Below, one piece after another: positions 387 through 17,660 of a DNA stretch of 27,511 nt. Made by a program: the position numbers and the translations under genes. How positions within the stretch are numbered: the stretch's first letter is position 1; each line of letters opens with the position of its first letter. The DNA comes from a virus. The notes under the pieces are model-generated. The model was not told the DNA's origin and did no database searches. It saw only the letters and a list, made by a program, of their open reading frames with translations. The stretch is taken from IMG/VR virus record IMGVR_UViG_3300042889_001846, positions 1-27,511 of that record; one strand, 5' to 3'.

Positions 387-770
387 ATGAAGAATATCAA
401 TAGCCGATTTAACGCTTTGGCCGAGTGGACCTCAAAGAGCACAGGTAGTCCCTTGAGTTTCTTCATAGCTTTGGCTCTGGTCTTGGGATGGGCTGCCACG
501 GGTCCCATATTTGAATTCTCGCCCACTTGGCAGCTAGTAATCAATACGGGTACCACCATCGCGACTTTCCTAATGGTCTTCCTTCTGCAGAACACGCAGA
601 ACCGTACCACCAACGAACTCAACAAGAACACCGAGGAGTTGAAGAAGATGGTACGACGTATGGCCAGTGACAATCGTAAGCTATTGGCCAAGCTCGAGGA
701 GATCGAAGAAGACATCGAGGAACTTGCAGAAGACGACGAGGTTGACTCAACGCCCCCGTCCGAGTTATAA
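387..770 (+). CDS. Low-affinity iron permease family-like small membrane protein
   Basis: This 127-residue protein starts with ATG behind a TAGGAG ribosome binding site. It has two hydrophobic segments (about residues 22-40 and 48-65), the second holding the block TWQLVINTGTTIATFLMVFL followed by QNTQNR. I recognise that pattern from the bacterial 'low affinity iron permease' family (Pfam Iron_permease). A charged tail follows (about 70-127), predicted to form a coiled coil and ending very acidic. The gene lies 9 bases after the receiver-domain gene. The family name comes from yeast Fet4, and transport by the short bacterial forms is not well established, so a role in iron uptake or membrane modification is only a suggestion. 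A perfect late promoter (766-773) overlaps the stop codon. Confidence 0.7.
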   Translation: MKNINSRFNALAEWTSKSTGSPLSFFIALALVLGWAATGPIFEFSPTWQLVINTGTTIATFLMVFLLQNTQNRTTNELNKNTEELKKMVRRMASDNRKLLAKLEEIEEDIEELAEDDEVDSTPPSEL

Positions 771-773
771 ATA
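766..773 (+). promoter_or_regulatory. T4-type late promoter, exact TATAAATA
   Basis: An exact match to the T4 late-promoter octamer overlaps the stop codon of the iron-permease-like gene. It lies 75 bases before the homing endonuclease start and could drive that gene and the following tRNA-Ser. In T4-like phages such sites are read by host RNA polymerase carrying the phage gp55-type sigma factor. A short inverted repeat (CACG-TGGC-CGTG) lies between this site and the second late box. Confidence 0.6.
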
Positions 774-820
774 GAGCATTGGATAGTTAATTCACGTGGC
801 CGTGGACCCAGTCTTGATTT

Positions 821-828
821 GATAAATA
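821..828 (+). promoter_or_regulatory. Late promoter, GATAAATA
   Basis: A second late-type octamer lies 20 bases before the ATG of the homing endonuclease, with a GGAG ribosome binding site in between. It is the better-placed of the two late boxes for this gene. Confidence 0.5.
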
Positions 829-848
829 CCTCTGGAAACGGAGGCTTT

Positions 849-1448
849 ATGGCAAATCATTGGACGGGTAAAACCCATACTCCAGAAACAAAGCAAAAGC
901 TTTCTGAGATTAGTCAGAAGCGATGGGCTGATGGTGTCTGCAAGCCACGGCGTATCCAATCTGAAGAAACCAAAGAAAAGATTCGTGCTGCCCTTGCTGG
1001 TAAGCCTAGAACTCCTAGGACAATTTCACCTGAGCGTGAAGCGATTCGCCGTGAGAAGATTAGACAATCCGCTCTTAATCGCAAACTTGGTGGCTACCAA
1101 GAAGGATCTGGGAGAGGGAAGAAAGGTCGATACAAAGGATATTGGTGTGATAGCAGCTATGAGCTCGCATGGGTGATCTACCAATTGGATCATGGAGTCT
1201 CATTCACAAGAAACACCAAGAAGTTTCCCTATGAGTTTGAGGGGAAGACATGTCATTGGATTCCGGACTTCATTTTAGCTGATGGATCGTATGTAGAAAT
1301 CAAGGGTTATGAGACAGATCAATCACGAGCCAAGCTAAAGGATTTCATCCATCCAATCGTTCTTCTCAAGGAGAAAGATTTGCATGATGTGTTCAGTTAT
1401 GTTAAAGATAAATATGGAAGCGATTTCATATCGCTTTATGGAGGGTAG
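849..1448 (+). CDS. Free-standing homing endonuclease: NUMOD3-like repeats plus PD-(D/E)xK-like nuclease domain
   Basis: I chose the ATG at 849 because a GGAG ribosome binding site lies 5 bases upstream; a start at 819 would have no such site. The 199-residue protein begins with short basic repeats of the NUMOD3 type (HTPETKQKLSEISQKRW and SEETKEKIRAALAGKPR), which usually grip DNA in phage homing endonucleases. The C-terminal half has an SSYELAW helix, then WIPDFILADGSYVEIKGY, a pattern like the PD-(D/E)xK active site (D, then ExK). Its last three codons and stop fall inside the acceptor stem of the tRNA-Ser, an unusual overlap that suggests insertion at the tRNA's 5' edge. Codon use is more AT-rich than in neighbouring metabolic genes, as expected for a mobile gene. 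Confidence 0.75.
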   Translation: MANHWTGKTHTPETKQKLSEISQKRWADGVCKPRRIQSEETKEKIRAALAGKPRTPRTISPEREAIRREKIRQSALNRKLGGYQEGSGRGKKGRYKGYWCDSSYELAWVIYQLDHGVSFTRNTKKFPYEFEGKTCHWIPDFILADGSYVEIKGYETDQSRAKLKDFIHPIVLLKEKDLHDVFSYVKDKYGSDFISLYGG

Positions 1449-3054: not shown

Positions 3055-3974
3055 CGCCTTACATCACTCGCGTCGCCCCCAGCCCCACGGGCGTGATGCA
3101 CATCGGTACCGCGCGTACCGCACTCTTCAACTGGCTCGCGGCTCGCGCCTCGGGCGGCAAGTTCTATCTGCGCATCGACGACACCGATGATTCGCGGAAC
3201 GATGCCGCTCACGTCGACCTCATCAAGGCCTCGCTGGCCTGGCTGAATCTCGACTACGATGATATTTTGTTCCAAAGCTCTGATGTCTCGCGCGATCGTG
3301 CGGTGGCCTGGGCCAATGATCTTGTGGCCATGAACCTCGCACAAGTTCTGGACAACGGTGCGATCGCGCTCGTGTGGGATCGCATGATGCCCGACAGCTG
3401 GGACGACGTGGTCTCCGGCCATCACGACATCACGGATGATTCCATCGACAAGACCATTGATGGAACCATCCTGATCCGAGGTGGTGATAACGTGGGCAAG
3501 CCCACCTACCACTGGAACAGTGTGTGCGATGATTTCGCGATGGGCATCAACTATATCATCCGCGGCAACGACCACATCACGAACACTGATCGTCAAGTCG
3601 CGATGTGGTGGGCGCTGGACCGCATCAATGGCAGCCTTCCCGCTGCTGATATGCTGGATCGTCCCCTTCCCACGTTCGCTCACGTGTCCTTGATTTTCAA
3701 GGACAAGAAGAAGCTGAGCAAGCGCGATGGCGCGGCATCGCTGATGCATTATCGTGACGCCGGCTATGACCGGGACGCCATCTTCGGCTTCCTGTTGGGT
3801 CAAGGCTGGGGCCGCAGCGACGGCAACACCAAGCACCTTATGACGCGGGACGACGCCCTGGCGATGTTCCTCGACGGTGGTAACTTCATCAGCCGAACCA
3901 ATACGGGATTCGACCAATTCATCTTGGATTCGTTGGATCGTAAGTGGAAGGCCCGCAAGGAGAAGGCTGCATGA
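3051..3974 (+). CDS. Glutamyl-tRNA synthetase-like protein, catalytic domain only
   Basis: The 307-residue protein is a class I aminoacyl-tRNA synthetase of the Glu type. It has APSPTGVMHIGTART (about 9-23, HIGH-type motif), RIDDTD (41-46), YHWNSVCDDFAMGINYIIRG (about 153-172, then NDHITNTDRQ) and KLSKRDG (221-227, KMSKS-type motif). Bacterial GluRS is about 470 residues; here the C-terminal anticodon-binding helical cage is nearly absent. The protein may therefore charge tRNA with relaxed anticodon recognition, act on a phage tRNA or non-tRNA substrate, or work like the short GluQ-RS group. It lacks the cysteine zinc site usual in GluQ-RS. The ATG overlaps the previous stop, and the SPFH gene follows with another ATGA overlap. 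Codons are GC-rich compared with the late genes. Confidence 0.85.
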   Translation: MTPYITRVAPSPTGVMHIGTARTALFNWLAARASGGKFYLRIDDTDDSRNDAAHVDLIKASLAWLNLDYDDILFQSSDVSRDRAVAWANDLVAMNLAQVLDNGAIALVWDRMMPDSWDDVVSGHHDITDDSIDKTIDGTILIRGGDNVGKPTYHWNSVCDDFAMGINYIIRGNDHITNTDRQVAMWWALDRINGSLPAADMLDRPLPTFAHVSLIFKDKKKLSKRDGAASLMHYRDAGYDRDAIFGFLLGQGWGRSDGNTKHLMTRDDALAMFLDGGNFISRTNTGFDQFILDSLDRKWKARKEKAA

Positions 3975-7182: not shown

Positions 7183-8241
7183 ATGAAGTCATTCGGTCTA
7201 TGGGACAACAAGAAAAACGAGGACTACTATTTCCTCGATGGGGTGATCCTTGAGCAGTTTGAACGTGGTGGCATGGCCGCCCTCGTTCATAAGTATCTTG
7301 GTGTGCATGACCAGGGTGAAACCGGTGATGCCACACAACCCAGCGCAGCTAAGAGTAAGACCAAGAAGGAGCGGCAGATCCAAGACCTTCTCTTTCTAGA
7401 GAACCGTGATCGTCACTATTCTCCTGACCTCTTTGAACTCCGCGCCGTCTACAATTTGCAGGACAATGAATTCAACATGAGCCAGTTTGGTCTCTTCGTT
7501 GATGCCGACACCTTCTACGTCGAGATCCATCTCAATGATTGTCTGACCAAGATTGGTCGCAAGCTTATGAGTGGCGACGTCTTGGAGTTCCCACACCTAC
7601 GAGATGACGCGCTCTTGGACGAGGACGCTCCGGCGATCAACAAATACTACCAGATCACCGATGTGAATCGTGCCGCTGGTGGATGGAGTCCAGTATGGCG
7701 CCCACACATACTCCGCATCAAAATCAAGCCCATGACTGCAAGTCAGGAATTTAGCGACATCTTGGATCGTGAAGAGGGTGACTTCAATGTGCGTGATCTC
7801 ATTGGAGACTGGCAGGATCAAATCAACATCAGTCAGAGCATCGTTGAACAAGCTGAGTCAGACGTTCCCTTCCGTAACTTCCAGACTCTGCAATTCTACG
7901 TCGTTCCTGGCGACGAGGATGGTACCCAATATCCATGGATATTTGCCGGCGATGGCGAACCACCCAACGGAGCGGAAGTCGTGGGGTCGGGTAGAGACTT
8001 CCCTGAGTCCCCCTCTCTGGGTGACTGGTTCCTCAACACGGCACACGAGCCTAATGTTCTCTACCAACGAATAGAGGGTGGATGGAAGCGCAAGGAAGTG
8101 GACCTTCGAAGGAAATGGTCCGCCGCCCATAGAATATTGGAATCGTTTATTTCGAATAGGAATGTCTCGGAAATTCAAGGTGAGAGTGTAATCGAAAGAC
8201 AACCATTGTCCAAAGTTCTAAAGCCCAGAGCTGATTTTTGA
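7183..8241 (+). CDS. T4 gp14-like neck protein
   Basis: The 352-residue protein shows the gp14 pattern. RDRHYSPDLFELRAVYN resembles T4 gp14's tyrosine/proline-rich YVSPDLIFGE region. A MSQFGLFVDADTFYVEIHLN block and then GDVLEFPHL...KYYQITDVNRAAGGWSP correspond to T4's GDLIYFPM...FEINWVEPYD region. T4 gp14 is 256 residues. The extra C-terminal part contains LGDWFLNTAHEPNVLYQRIEGGWK, a short beta motif common in phage tail and fibre proteins. Gp14 with gp13 completes the neck. The last codons (8218-8241) overlap, tail to tail, the end of the minus-strand homing endonuclease, so the natural C-terminus may have been altered by that insertion. Base use in the last 100 bases is more AT-rich. Confidence 0.7.
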   Translation: MKSFGLWDNKKNEDYYFLDGVILEQFERGGMAALVHKYLGVHDQGETGDATQPSAAKSKTKKERQIQDLLFLENRDRHYSPDLFELRAVYNLQDNEFNMSQFGLFVDADTFYVEIHLNDCLTKIGRKLMSGDVLEFPHLRDDALLDEDAPAINKYYQITDVNRAAGGWSPVWRPHILRIKIKPMTASQEFSDILDREEGDFNVRDLIGDWQDQINISQSIVEQAESDVPFRNFQTLQFYVVPGDEDGTQYPWIFAGDGEPPNGAEVVGSGRDFPESPSLGDWFLNTAHEPNVLYQRIEGGWKRKEVDLRRKWSAAHRILESFISNRNVSEIQGESVIERQPLSKVLKPRADF

Positions 8242-9138
8242 TTTCCACTTAGACTCCCAAATTTCCATAATCTGATATCCTGATTTCAGAATCTTATCTC
8301 TCTTAGACAAAGTTTTGTTATATAGAGATCCGTAGGAAACCTTGCACACTGGATGAATGTCATTCTGGTTGGTAGTCAAGGGATTACCATGCCATTTATC
8401 ACCCCAGAATTCGTACACCGTTAATGTGGTCGCATCGTAGCCATCGGCCACAATGAACGAACCATCTTCCATGAAGAGCTTAACCTGACGATGGAACCGA
8501 TCATCAGGCAAGCCTAGATGATCCAACCAAGCATCTTGCATCCTATAGCGATTGGAACATTTGGGACAACCACTCCCCGCCAAATGGTTACATGCCAATT
8601 GATCGAATATACCATGCCTGGCACATTTTATTTGGACTTTCTGATTCAATCCAGAGTAAGTGACCAAATCATATAGGTATTTTTGGCCATGAATCTCGAT
8701 GGATCTCTCAATGAAACTCTCTGTCGTCAATGGTTTGACCTTGGCGCATTCTTGACAACCCGCTCCACCCAAATGAAGATGTGGCAATTGCCAGAATTCT
8801 CCATGATCTCGGCAAATGATTCTAATTTTGGTGGTCACAGATTTGTACTCAACTTGTGAGTAATCATATCTATCACCATGTGTTTGAGTTGCTCTATCTA
8901 CAAAACCAGATAATCCATAGCCACGCCTTTCACTTTCTTTGGTGGATGCGCATTTTGGACAACCCGATCCACTGAGATGGTTCGATGGTCTTTGATCAAA
9001 GTCTCCATGAATTTTGCAGGTGATGCACACTGGCCGATCTATTCTAGAATATTCAACCTTGGAATAATCATAAGTATCACCATGCGCCTTTGTGAATCTG
9101 TTTAGGATTCTTTCTAGAGTCTGCATTGGTCTTGCCAT
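8218..9138 (-). CDS. Free-standing homing endonuclease with three treble-clef zinc repeats
   Basis: I chose the ATG at 9138 (MARPMQT...) because AGGA lies 8 bases upstream; 9177 is an in-frame alternative without one. The 306-residue protein has three copies of a repeat of about 55 residues: HGD.YDYS.V.Y...., then CxxHG.F.Q...HL.G.GCP.C, DUF723-like zinc-binding modules that bind DNA. The C-terminal domain (YEFWGDKWHGNP, then RDKILKSGYQIMEIWES.W) resembles the very-short-patch-repair-like nuclease of phage and cyanophage mobile genes. It lies on the opposite strand between two late genes and is AT-rich, both signs of mobility. Its stop lies within the last codons of the gp14-like gene. Confidence 0.75.
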   Translation of the reverse strand: MARPMQTLERILNRFTKAHGDTYDYSKVEYSRIDRPVCITCKIHGDFDQRPSNHLSGSGCPKCASTKESERRGYGLSGFVDRATQTHGDRYDYSQVEYKSVTTKIRIICRDHGEFWQLPHLHLGGAGCQECAKVKPLTTESFIERSIEIHGQKYLYDLVTYSGLNQKVQIKCARHGIFDQLACNHLAGSGCPKCSNRYRMQDAWLDHLGLPDDRFHRQVKLFMEDGSFIVADGYDATTLTVYEFWGDKWHGNPLTTNQNDIHPVCKVSYGSLYNKTLSKRDKILKSGYQIMEIWESKWKSKISSGL

Positions 9139-9193
9139 ACTGCTTTTCCTTGATTGGTATAAATCTAAACTTATCAATTACTTATCTCCTTTG

Positions 9194-15079: not shown

Positions 15080-15667
15080 ATGCACAGTTATCCCTTCCGA
15101 ATGTCGAGCAACACGGCCACCATGCTGGTAATCGACCGTAACCCTGACGACCTTCTGATGAGCCGGGTGTGCATTGGTATCCGCGGCCGTAACGTGGAAG
15201 TTCATCCCAGCAAGCCAAGTCTGCCGGGTGGCTTCATGGAGGCTAAGTTCTCCGCAGCGCAAGCGGCCTTTATGCTCAAGGGTAGCACCTCGGACTTCAT
15301 TCCCCCTGATCTGCATCCGGGTGAAGATCTCGAGACCACTGCCTTGCGTGAGCTCAAGGAAGAGCTCTGCACAGACTTCGAACGTGGGCAGCTCGTTCAG
15401 TATTACACCTGCAGCCTACCGGGTCTGGATCCGCGGGCTCATGTTGTGAACCTCTGCTTCTACCTCGAAGCAACTCCCGAACAAGTCGCATCGATCAAGG
15501 CCGGTGACGACCTCGAGGAGATCGAATGGTGGACCGTATTGGACTGCCTAGAAATGTACCACGAAATCGCCTTCAATCACCGAGACCTGATGCAACGTGG
15601 CCTCAAGGCTTGGGCAAAGGAAGAGCGCTACAAAGAAATGGAGGCCCAACTTGGCCGACCGGCGTAA
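15080..15667 (+). CDS. Nudix hydrolase
   Basis: The 195-residue protein has the catalytic part of the Nudix box, E82-x7-RELKEEL (R90 to L96), including the metal-binding glutamates E94 and E95. The usual leading glycine is displaced. PGG lies at 49-51, and about 30 extra residues separate it from E82, so the box loop is enlarged. Nudix enzymes split nucleoside diphosphates linked to another group. In this operon, ADP-ribose, NADH or NaAD are plausible substrates, but the sequence does not decide. A promoter lies directly upstream and the ATG has a GGAG ribosome binding site. Its end overlaps the start of the adenylyltransferase gene by 17 bases. Confidence 0.85.
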   Translation: MHSYPFRMSSNTATMLVIDRNPDDLLMSRVCIGIRGRNVEVHPSKPSLPGGFMEAKFSAAQAAFMLKGSTSDFIPPDLHPGEDLETTALRELKEELCTDFERGQLVQYYTCSLPGLDPRAHVVNLCFYLEATPEQVASIKAGDDLEEIEWWTVLDCLEMYHEIAFNHRDLMQRGLKAWAKEERYKEMEAQLGRPA

Positions 15668-16316
15668 GTTCGCGGAGATTAAGAATCCGCAAAAGCGTGT
15701 TGGCTTGGCCAATATGCGTACCCAACCCATGCACTTGGGACACCTGGGTATTCTGAATACCATGATTGGTGCCTGCGAGACTGTGATCCTCGGCCTGGGC
15801 TCTGCTCAGAAGGCTCCGGACGAACATGATCCCTGGCCCATCGACAACCGCATTCAACAGGCCCGCAATGTCTACGGTGATCGGATCAAGATCATCCCCC
15901 TGAATGATCTGGGAACCACGGCGGGCACCAACGATTGGATCGATTACGTCTTGGATAAGGCTCAGAAGCTGGGCCTTCCCGAACCGACTGATTACTACAC
16001 GGGCAGCGAGGCCGACGCCATCTGGTATCGGGAACGCTTCTACCGCAAGTTCTTCAGCCCCGTCCCCGAGGATGTCACTCTGCCTCCTGTCTGGGACGAG
16101 AGTGTAGACGAAGCCTACGATGGCTATTATACCGAGGGTGGCGTCCTGCGCCATCTTCATATTCGCGCTCGGGATATGACGCAAGTTCCCAGCGCAACCG
16201 AGATCCGTACCTTCATGGCACTTCGCAATGATGGGTGGAAGCGGTTCGTCCCCCAGGTTAACCATTCACTTGTGGAGGAGACTTATCCACAAGAATTCAG
16301 AGTGAAGAATTCCTAA
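15651..16316 (+). CDS. Nicotinamide/nicotinate mononucleotide adenylyltransferase (HxGH nucleotidyltransferase)
   Basis: I chose the TTG at 15651 because GGAGG lies 6 bases before it. Upstream starts lack a site, and the first ATG (15714) would cut into the fold. The 221-residue protein has the nucleotidyltransferase motif RTQPMHLGH (HLGH at 28-31), then PWPIDNRIQQA, and the C-terminal VPSATEIRTFMA, equivalent to the ISSTxIR motif. This is the NMNAT pattern, closer to the NadM/archaeal type than to NadD. It should adenylate NaMN to NaAD, or NMN to NAD+. Its last 19 codons are a recoded replacement brought by the adjacent homing endonuclease; the original codons remain at 16940-17005. Confidence 0.85.
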   Translation: MADRRKFAEIKNPQKRVGLANMRTQPMHLGHLGILNTMIGACETVILGLGSAQKAPDEHDPWPIDNRIQQARNVYGDRIKIIPLNDLGTTAGTNDWIDYVLDKAQKLGLPEPTDYYTGSEADAIWYRERFYRKFFSPVPEDVTLPPVWDESVDEAYDGYYTEGGVLRHLHIRARDMTQVPSATEIRTFMALRNDGWKRFVPQVNHSLVEETYPQEFRVKNS

Positions 16317-16896
16317 GGATCTTTTTAACCTTTTCTCGGAGGCTGGCCGCGGCAGACATCTTTGCTTTTGCTTCTGGACTACAAACTCTACCCACAGCCT
16401 TCATACGACGAGCCTCTCGGGCTTCAGGGTCTAGGCTATCCCAATAGGTTGATGCACTCTTTGACATCAAACTCTTGGTATCATCACTTGCTTTGGTTCC
16501 GAAACGATGACTGTCCTCTCCAGGTTTATGAGGGTTGTTGTTCCTCATGTATTCTTTGAAAGATTCTGGTTTGGTTTTGCCTTTTGAAGAAGGTGGATTT
16601 GCAGACACACATAGATTGGTAAGTATGCCTTTCTCATCAAATCTCCTCCTACCAAGATCTTTGATGAGTTTCTCTTCGAGTTGATACGCATCGGCTTCGG
16701 AGAGGTCATCGGATATGATCTTAATCACTGGCTCCAAACCTTCTGATCTGATCTGTCCAATAACATTGTCCTTGTATGGATTTTCACCTTTTGTGTAACC
16801 CTTCAAATGGTTGAAGGCGCGAGTCCCAGTGCCCTTTCCGATATAGAAGGGAAGTTCAGTTCTCGGGTCACAGAGTGAATAAACATAGAAAGACAT
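16297..16896 (-). CDS. GIY-YIG homing endonuclease
   Basis: The ATG at 16896 is used because the late promoter (16931-16938) overlaps the longer reading frame. The 199-residue protein has YVYSLCD (GIY element, 4-10), FYIGKGTGTRAFNHL (YIG element plus catalytic Arg) and a later QLEEKLIKDLG that supplies the metal-binding Glu. The C-terminal part carries a basic NUMOD-like tail (SPEAKAKMSAAASLREKVKKIL). It lies opposite to the operon and its last seven codons overlap the end of the adenylyltransferase gene tail to tail. It is AT-rich compared with its GC-rich neighbours and has its own exact TATAAATA promoter. It cuts DNA, probably at the uninterrupted adenylyltransferase 3' end. Confidence 0.85.
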   Translation of the reverse strand: MSFYVYSLCDPRTELPFYIGKGTGTRAFNHLKGYTKGENPYKDNVIGQIRSEGLEPVIKIISDDLSEADAYQLEEKLIKDLGRRRFDEKGILTNLCVSANPPSSKGKTKPESFKEYMRNNNPHKPGEDSHRFGTKASDDTKSLMSKSASTYWDSLDPEAREARRMKAVGRVCSPEAKAKMSAAASLREKVKKILRNSSL

Positions 16897-16930
16897 AGAC
16901 AAACGACCGATCCTAAGTATTATGATCGTG

Positions 16931-16938
16931 TATTTATA
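16931..16938 (-). promoter_or_regulatory. Exact late promoter TATAAATA (minus strand) for the GIY-YIG gene
   Basis: A perfect octamer lies 34 bases before the endonuclease ATG. It lies just inside the insertion edge, next to the stranded adenylyltransferase codons, so the mobile unit carries its own late promoter. Confidence 0.7.
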
Positions 16939-16939
16939 C

Positions 16940-17005
16940 GTCAATCATTCACTGGTTGACGAAACCTACCCGGAAGAGTTCCGGGTAAGGAAACCTGGAG
17001 AATAA
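16940..17005 (+). pseudogene. Stranded original C-terminal codons of the adenylyltransferase gene
   Basis: Read from 16940, the plus strand gives VNHSLVDETYPEEFRVRKPGE and a stop. The working gene now ends VNHSLVEETYPQEFRVKNS (16257-16313). Of 19 aligned residues 14 are identical, yet 11 of those 14 codons differ at silent positions (my count: 39 of 57 bases identical). This is the pre-insertion end of the gene. It ends one base before the pncA ATG and still contains the pncA ribosome binding site (GGAG). Confidence 0.85.
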
Positions 17006-17006
17006 A

Positions 17007-17660
17007 ATGACCAACACCATCGAACTACTGTCCACCGATGCACTCATCGTTGTGGATCCGCAACTGGACTTCTGCCCCGGCGGCGCTCTTGCCGTGACCG
17101 ACGGCGACGAAGTCATGCCACTGATCGTGAACCTGATGGGTCGCTTCGACACCGCCGGCGCCACTATTGTGTTCACCCAGGACTGGCACACTCAGGACCA
17201 AGTCAGCTTCGCTTCCAACCACGGCGTCGCCCCGTTCACTGACATCGAGGTCAGCTACGGAACGCAGACGACCTGGCCCGACCATTGCCTGCAAGGCAGC
17301 ACGGGCGCAGACTTCCACCCCTCACTGAACATGAACAAGGTGGACCTGATCATCCGTAAGGGTGCCCATCCCACCATTGACAGCTACTCGGCTTTCAATG
17401 AGAACGACCGCACGACCAGCACTGGTCTGGCCGGACTGCTCCGTGATCGTGGTATCACGCGCGTCTTCCTCGTGGGTCTGGCTTACGACTTCTGCGTGGG
17501 CTACAGCGCACTGGATGCCGTGACTGAAGGCTTTGACGTCATCATCCTCAAGGACGCCACCCGTGCCATCGACCTCAACGGCAGCGTGGCTATCATGGAA
17601 GAACAGTTCACCCTGGCGGGTGTTCAACTTGTGGACAATCTGAACCCCTACAATGGGTAG
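17007..17660 (+). CDS. pncA: Nicotinamidase
   Basis: The 217-residue protein is a PncA-type isochorismatase-fold hydrolase. The catalytic triad is visible: D17 (IVVDPQLDFCPGG), K118 (IIRKG) and C163 (LAYDFCVGYSA). The metal site is D59-x-H61 (TQDWH) with H93 in WPDHC. It hydrolyses nicotinamide to nicotinate and ammonia, which feed PncB and, for the ammonia, NadE. Before the homing endonuclease arrived, this gene followed the adenylyltransferase stop by one base. Its own GGAG ribosome binding site lies in the stranded codons. The 3' end overlaps the next gene by 8 bases. Confidence 0.93.
   Translation: MTNTIELLSTDALIVVDPQLDFCPGGALAVTDGDEVMPLIVNLMGRFDTAGATIVFTQDWHTQDQVSFASNHGVAPFTDIEVSYGTQTTWPDHCLQGSTGADFHPSLNMNKVDLIIRKGAHPTIDSYSAFNENDRTTSTGLAGLLRDRGITRVFLVGLAYDFCVGYSALDAVTEGFDVIILKDATRAIDLNGSVAIMEEQFTLAGVQLVDNLNPYNG

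Follow-up and report, generated by a model that had tools for sequence, protein, structure and literature searches.

A candidate homing cassette with a substitute C-terminal exon in the NMN adenylyltransferase gene of a myovirus-like phage

The NMN adenylyltransferase (NMNAT) gene of an uncultured phage very probably contains a homing cassette, composed of a substitute C-terminal exon and a convergent GIY-YIG endonuclease gene with a late promoter of its own. The putative recognition site would span the insertion junction, and the enzyme would be left whole. The window analyzed here, i.e., the whole 27.5-kb IMG/VR virus record, is an uncultured contig whose tail sheath and head-tail adaptor genes point to a myovirus-like phage. 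At the level of sequence, the structure of the cassette, its precise junctions, the kept reading frame, the native remnant and the association of altered tails with endonucleases are established by the comparisons described below.

Two NMNAT tails and the endonuclease gene between them

The window carries an NAD-salvage cluster with genes for NAD synthetase, nicotinate phosphoribosyltransferase, a NUDIX hydrolase, NMNAT and nicotinamidase. Sinorhizobium phage Phosso carries these genes in an identical order, and Agrobacterium phage Atu_ph07 possesses the NUDIX-NMNAT pair. The NMNAT protein matched phrog_3462 (nicotinamide-nucleotide adenylyltransferase). In the window, a GIY-YIG endonuclease gene on the opposite strand stands between NMNAT and nicotinamidase (Table 1).

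Table 1. Features in and around the NMNAT gene of the window.
Feature	Position	Strand	Remarks
NUDIX hydrolase, upstream neighbour	15080..15667	+	PF00293; synteny kept in Phosso and Atu_ph07
NMNAT body (NadM/cytidylyltransferase-like), native part	15654..16256	+	PF01467, 23.9 bits, above cutoff
Recoded C-terminal exon of NMNAT, 19 codons and stop, in use	16257..16316	+	in frame with body
GIY-YIG homing endonuclease (predicted), 199 aa, NUMOD3 motif	16297..16896	-	PF22945 and PF07460 above cutoff
TATAAATA, T4-type late promoter -10 element of endonuclease (putative)	16931..16938	-	abuts right junction
Native NMNAT 3' end, left as remnant	16940..17005	+	followed directly by nicotinamidase, as in Phosso and L007
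Nicotinamidase-like isochorismatase, ancestral downstream neighbour	17007..17660	+	PF00857, 86 bits

The sequence-only reading had reported that the last 19 codons of NMNAT are duplicated beyond the GIY-YIG gene. This was reproduced exactly with regard to the coordinates, the identical residues (14 of 19) and the silent differences (11 of the 14 codons for shared residues). The tail in use (16257-16313) encodes VNHSLVEETYPQEFRVKNS and ends with the stop codon 16314-16316, and the second tail (16940-17002) encodes VNHSLVDETYPEEFRVRKPGE, followed by the stop codon 17003-17005. The two tails are identical in 39 of 57 nt, and 14 of the 18 nucleotide differences fall on third codon positions. An independent repeat finder ranked this pair first among direct repeats (53 nt, 72%, spacing 683), and searching NMNAT against the window record matched the second copy at 16937-16990. 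In its codon choice, the substitute tail was closer to the endonuclease gene than to the phage genes, by about 7 log units (200 codons, a small sample); this is only suggestive of a tie between the altered tail and the endonuclease gene.

The remnant contains the Shine-Dalgarno-like GGAGAATAA of the nicotinamidase gene. A perfect 9-bp inverted repeat is present at 16967-16987 (TACCCGGAA GAG TTCCGGGTA) and absent from the substitute tail. Moreover, an in-frame ATG at 16922 turns the remnant into a possible ORF of 27 aa (16922-17005, plus strand; MIVYLYVNHSLVDETYPEEFRVRKPGE).

The endonuclease matched PF22945 with 28.2 bits, as compared to a cutoff of 27. In an alignment of nine endonucleases, the GIY-YIG residues Y4, Y6, Y18, G20, R26, H30, E74 and N94 were invariant, including the conserved Y, G, R, E and N of the predicted catalytic core. 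The endonuclease gene has its own start and stop codons, NMNAT has its own stop codon, and no intron family was matched in Rfam within 15600-17400 at E ≤ 1. The gene thus appears to be free-standing, i.e., located outside any self-splicing intron or intein. It is convergent with NMNAT, and its final 20 bp overlap the end of the substitute exon in antisense orientation, with base pairs shared between NMNAT ...RVKNS* and endonuclease ...LRNSSL*. The sequence-only reading had included neither the minus-strand course of the gene (16896 to 16297) with its 20-bp overlap with the recoded end, nor the 5'-end versions in other phages described below. The octamer TATAAATA upstream of the gene has a single further copy in the 27.5 kb (two seen, 0.10 expected); this second copy (766-773, plus strand) lies just before an endonuclease-like gene at 819-1448. 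In four other loci with terminal duplication, the octamer likewise precedes the endonuclease by 32-38 nt. Taken together, the foreign unit extends from 16257 to 16939 and comprises 683 bp, with the substitute exon (60 bp) and the endonuclease gene facing it. Besides the tail, it codes only for the GIY-YIG protein, and an integrase gene was not found in it.

Two further endonuclease-like genes are present in the window. The gene at 819-1448 (plus strand) shows NUMOD3 and endonuclease I-like matches, its stop codon lies inside tRNA-Ser(TGA) (1440-1525), and no tRNA fragment repeat flanks it. The gene at 8218-9140 (minus strand, DUF723) is convergent with the gene at 7183-8241 and overlaps its 3' end by 24 bp. 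This layout is the same as at NMNAT, yet a displaced tail was not detected; neither of the two genes is flanked by a terminal duplication.

Insert-free relatives of NMNAT and of other target genes

The NMNAT of the window is 45-54% identical to its counterparts in Phosso, Atu_ph07 and the loci L007 and L008. In all four, which lack the insert, the gene is uninterrupted and possesses a single tail of the VNH/VNW...F type. In Phosso and L007, this tail is directly followed by a Shine-Dalgarno-like GGAG(A) and the start of the nicotinamidase gene. Since 16940-17005 occupies the same position as the tail of the relatives and holds that ribosome-binding site, it is read as the displaced native end of NMNAT, on the basis of position and synteny and with the closest relative being only about 54% identical. 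The altered and the native tail each match L007 in 33 of 57 nt, and their shortness and divergence preclude a tree. A scan of IMG/VR with NMNAT as a single protein gave no match, and one scan of genome contigs confirmed no relative.

For the target gene of the loci L158, L149 and L153, 78 related loci were fetched, which provided 45 complete endonuclease-free genes and three distinct endonuclease loci. A native tail of the ACI or SCI type was present in 45 of 45 endonuclease-free genes and the altered tail in none of them. In contrast, the altered tail (AAI type) occurred in 3 of 3 endonuclease loci, with a native remnant beyond the endonuclease (0/45 vs. 3/3; Fisher P = 6e-5, not corrected for shared ancestry). 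Pairs of genes with and without the endonuclease were compared at the nucleotide level. Between L271 (L158 locus) and the endonuclease-free L272, the gene bodies are 98.2% identical and the sequences after the remnant match in 150 of 150 nt; the tail of L272 matches the remnant of L271 in 73 of 75 nt and the own tail of the L271 gene in 51 of 75 nt. The pair L291 and L315 gave 96.6% for the body, 148/150 after the remnant, 72/75 for the remnant and 36/75 for the own tail. Similarly, the RNase HII gene matches the endonuclease-free L351 in 441 of 501 positions of the body, 71 of 84 nt of the remnant and 53 of 84 nt of the working tail. The three pairs show that the inserted unit consists of the altered tail plus the endonuclease. 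The proposal of a mobile unit that supplies a C-terminal exon of its own and leaves the enzyme whole was therefore supported by the NMNAT tails as well as by with/without comparisons for two other target genes.

The same arrangement in other phages

In GIY-YIG endonuclease loci taken from IMG/VR and from phages in GenBank, direct repeats flanking the endonuclease were sought at the translated level; further ORFs of these loci served as controls. Repeat scores of at least 55 were obtained for 11 of 164 non-redundant endonucleases and 6 of 265 controls. After the "control" L046, an endonuclease with a long N-terminus, had been moved, the counts were 12/164 and 5/265 (P = 0.006). Since control cases exist and only part of the 12 hits were checked by hand, the enrichment over control genes (P about 0.006-0.02) is modest. 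The signature was found in only about 7% of the surveyed GIY-YIG endonucleases; most other GenBank endonuclease loci tested showed no terminal duplication, and T4 segA-F and mobA are not flanked by one.

C-terminal versions were found at four kinds of target: RNase HII (L157; convergent with a 9-bp overlap, i.e., the layout of the window), the baseplate hub assembly catalyst (L229, L221 and L212; convergent), the ribonucleotide reductase small subunit (L046) and a family of 117-126 aa with a weak match to phrog_398 (L158, L149 and L153). Among 13 pairs of gene ends, differences at the first, second and third codon positions amounted to 94/51/139, third positions being the most frequent. One of these pairs is L219, with a Pyr_excise-type target; its insert ORF lacks a Pfam match, and the case is not proven to involve an endonuclease.

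In the N-terminal layout, a short stub is followed by the endonuclease and then by the intact gene with a differently spelled start. It was seen at a gp25-like baseplate gene of the cultured Achromobacter phage Motura, at one gene each of the cultured phages Atu_ph07 and S-SRM01, at a DnaB-like helicase gene (metagenomic L136) and at a glycosyltransferase gene (metagenomic L074), where the substitute N-terminus lies inside the 3' end of the endonuclease gene in another frame. In the cyanophage S-SRM01, which infects Synechococcus (L022, 3307-3642), the substitute N-terminus begins at 3307/3310. By comparison, position 3415, annotated as the start of the target, seems too late, making the annotated gene about 100 bp too short; the stub ahead of the endonuclease lacks an annotation in this phage. 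For Motura, the start in BcepSauron is nearer to the altered copy than to the stub, with BcepSauron being too distant, and the stub coordinate one base off, for a clean comparison. In the case of Atu_ph07, the start in Phosso (MESVKD) is similar to the stub (MDNVKD) and not to the altered start (MTTLDL), and 60-nt blocks do not separate stub and altered start (36 vs. 40 of 60). Given these two comparisons, the N-terminal cases rest on their anatomy rather than on insert-free close relatives.

Several high-scoring loci were not counted as verified. In L230, L249, L216 and L191, the scores arose from repeats that are not tied to a gene end; L079 may be a tandem paralogue; the gene-end repeat of L005/L006 (FIIG) is too short to judge; and the high control scores of L255 and L219 belong to unknown ORFs. 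In L255, 26-residue copies at 534-614 and 1101-1181 (GHFNNWH.DTHKVPVIPY.TF), in an open frame that lacks a start, flank an ORF with a weak DUF6686 match below the cutoff. A non-endonuclease gene of the DAHP-synthase family (kdsA-like; L103, 2432-3292) is flanked by two gene-tail copies (RLRTAGMEDIQV and RLRSAGMEDIQV), which suggests that other phage genes may also be inserted with substitute ends.

Proposed mechanism, alternatives and known systems

According to the proposed model, a cassette of about 683 bp would have been inserted in NMNAT just before the VNH codons. NMNAT would now read from the body through the substitute exon to the stop codon, giving a full-length enzyme, and the displaced native exon, with the ribosome-binding site of nicotinamidase still in it, would persist as a remnant further downstream. 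The endonuclease would cut both strands of alleles lacking the insert, at a site that spans the junction of body and tail, and the cassette would be copied in during repair, as for known homing endonucleases. Insertion may remove the recognition site, as the sequence-only reading had proposed, and the new allele would then be immune to self-cleavage. The native 57 bp are intact in the remnant, so immunity of the element would require a recognition site that straddles body and tail. With an unaltered tail, this site would reappear at the left junction; a perfect direct repeat would also arise, and recombination between its copies could remove the insert. Because of these two risks, a different spelling of the tail is probably needed. 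As to generality, we lean, with considerable reserve, towards the view that free-standing phage endonucleases recurrently invade essential genes near either end, with a divergent substitute exon repairing the gene and conferring immunity.

Alternatively, the altered tail may be a passenger, i.e., flanking DNA of a distant donor phage acquired by homeologous recombination or co-conversion and lacking a selected role in immunity. We regard this as possible, if doubtful. The sequence-only reading had described the tail as recoded; its different spelling was borne out, but recoding beyond ordinary divergence was not, since 11 silent codon changes were seen and 8.2 are expected at synonymous saturation (P = 0.09). 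Since silent change does not exceed saturation, a distant allele may be the plain source of the altered tail, with no recoding for escape involved. The passenger explanation also agrees with the reading of the fungal cases as horizontal transfer from another species (PMC3630166) and with the two tails around the non-endonuclease kdsA-like gene of L103. On the other hand, the overlap of tail and endonuclease, of 20 bp in the window and likewise at the glycosyltransferase target of L074, argues for one unit. In addition, the altered tails of the L158, L149 and L153 targets are mutually alike (EAAI/QAAI), whereas all endonuclease-free tails there are ACI or SCI. The enrichment over control genes is modest.

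The remnant could have been kept for a function of its own, e.g., as a nicotinamidase leader, a hairpin, a ribosome-binding site or the 27-aa peptide from ATG 16922. The Shine-Dalgarno-like motif, the inverted repeat and the in-frame ATG within or before the remnant fit this idea, which is nevertheless unlikely as an explanation, since no ribosome-binding site is visible before ATG 16922 and the upstream altered copy is left unexplained. Such a function would be compatible with the cassette model.

A local duplication of the gene end in tandem, followed by insertion of the endonuclease between the copies, would account for their direct orientation around the insert and is highly improbable. 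When neutral divergence to 18 of 57 nt differences was simulated, a mean of 8 residues matched and at least 14 did so in no more than 1 of 10,000 runs (P ≤ 1e-4). This excludes decay of a local duplicate and indicates that both tails were under protein-level selection before coming together; furthermore, close endonuclease-free relatives of the other targets have one tail, which matches only the remnant. An assembly chimera of two phage strains, conceivable for an uncultured metagenome contig of 27.5 kb, deserves equally little credence, since the pattern recurs in the complete cultured phages Motura, Atu_ph07 and S-SRM01 and in the duplicate contigs L276/L277, L291/L292 and L349/L350.

The cassette model may be compared with known systems. 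Integrase-type elements (e14 and phage 21 in icd) rebuild the 3' end of their target gene in a differently spelled form. The NMNAT unit is like them in supplying a differently spelled gene end; it differs in that the insert codes for no integrase and its enzyme is a GIY-YIG nuclease. The sequence-only reading had likewise compared the unit with prophages that rebuild the 3' end of a target gene. The device is not without precedent. Fungal mitochondrial mobile ORFs (mORFs) with a foreign C-terminus are known from atp6 of Allomyces, atp6, atp9, cox2 and nad3 of Glomus, atp9 of Rhizopus and cox2 of Mortierella (PMC3630166). They consist of an endonuclease ORF (LAGLIDADG, or GIY-YIG in Glomus atp9) and a substitute C-terminus fused in frame, with the native C-terminus downstream; the copies diverged mostly synonymously, with 63.5% nucleotide identity in atp6 (PMC3630166). 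Likewise, the endonuclease of the window adjoins a second, divergent NMNAT C-terminus fused in frame to the body, and a displaced native C-terminus lies beyond it, as judged from position and synteny in the window and from clear nucleotide matches in two other targets. In contrast to mORFs, the unit resides in a T4-like phage and not in mitochondrial DNA, is convergent with an antisense overlap and has its own late promoter, and in other phages the substitute exon is N-terminal. Thus, the NMNAT unit appears to work like an mORF without being one. Fungi already provide the principle; its occurrence in phages, the convergent and overlapping layout and the use of either gene end are apparently new.

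The free-standing Seg and Mob endonucleases of T4 are intergenic or split genes (mobE, mobA) (PMC2988022). The unit shares with them the free-standing GIY-YIG gene, the late promoter that some possess and the T4-type phage background (PMC2988022); it differs from segA-F and mobA in its terminal duplication. At the T4 mobA/gene 60 bypass cassette, the endonuclease lies within the gene, and added sequence is thought to protect the recipient from cleavage (PMC5009743). There, however, the gene is split and protection is provided by a 50-nt bypassed insert rather than a substitute exon. Duplicated gene ends are not mentioned in the text of the T4 review (PMC2988022), the matching passages of a phage nuclease survey (PMC10448857) do not describe substitute gene ends, and no phage description of substitute-end cassettes was found in the open-licence papers searched.

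Substitution of a gene end explains how an endonuclease can enter the coding part of a needed gene without breaking it. The genes invaded in this way include those for NMNAT, RNase HII, the ribonucleotide reductase small subunit, a DnaB-type helicase and baseplate proteins. Under the model, some ORFs now annotated as hypothetical or with a wrong start should be short stubs or odd gene ends, as for the S-SRM01 target, and the model provides a testable rule for the location of recognition sites, namely across the body/tail junction. The same device would operate in fungal mitochondria and in phages. If this is true, endonucleases would spread, and gene ends would be exchanged between phages, in a general way that has so far not been described.
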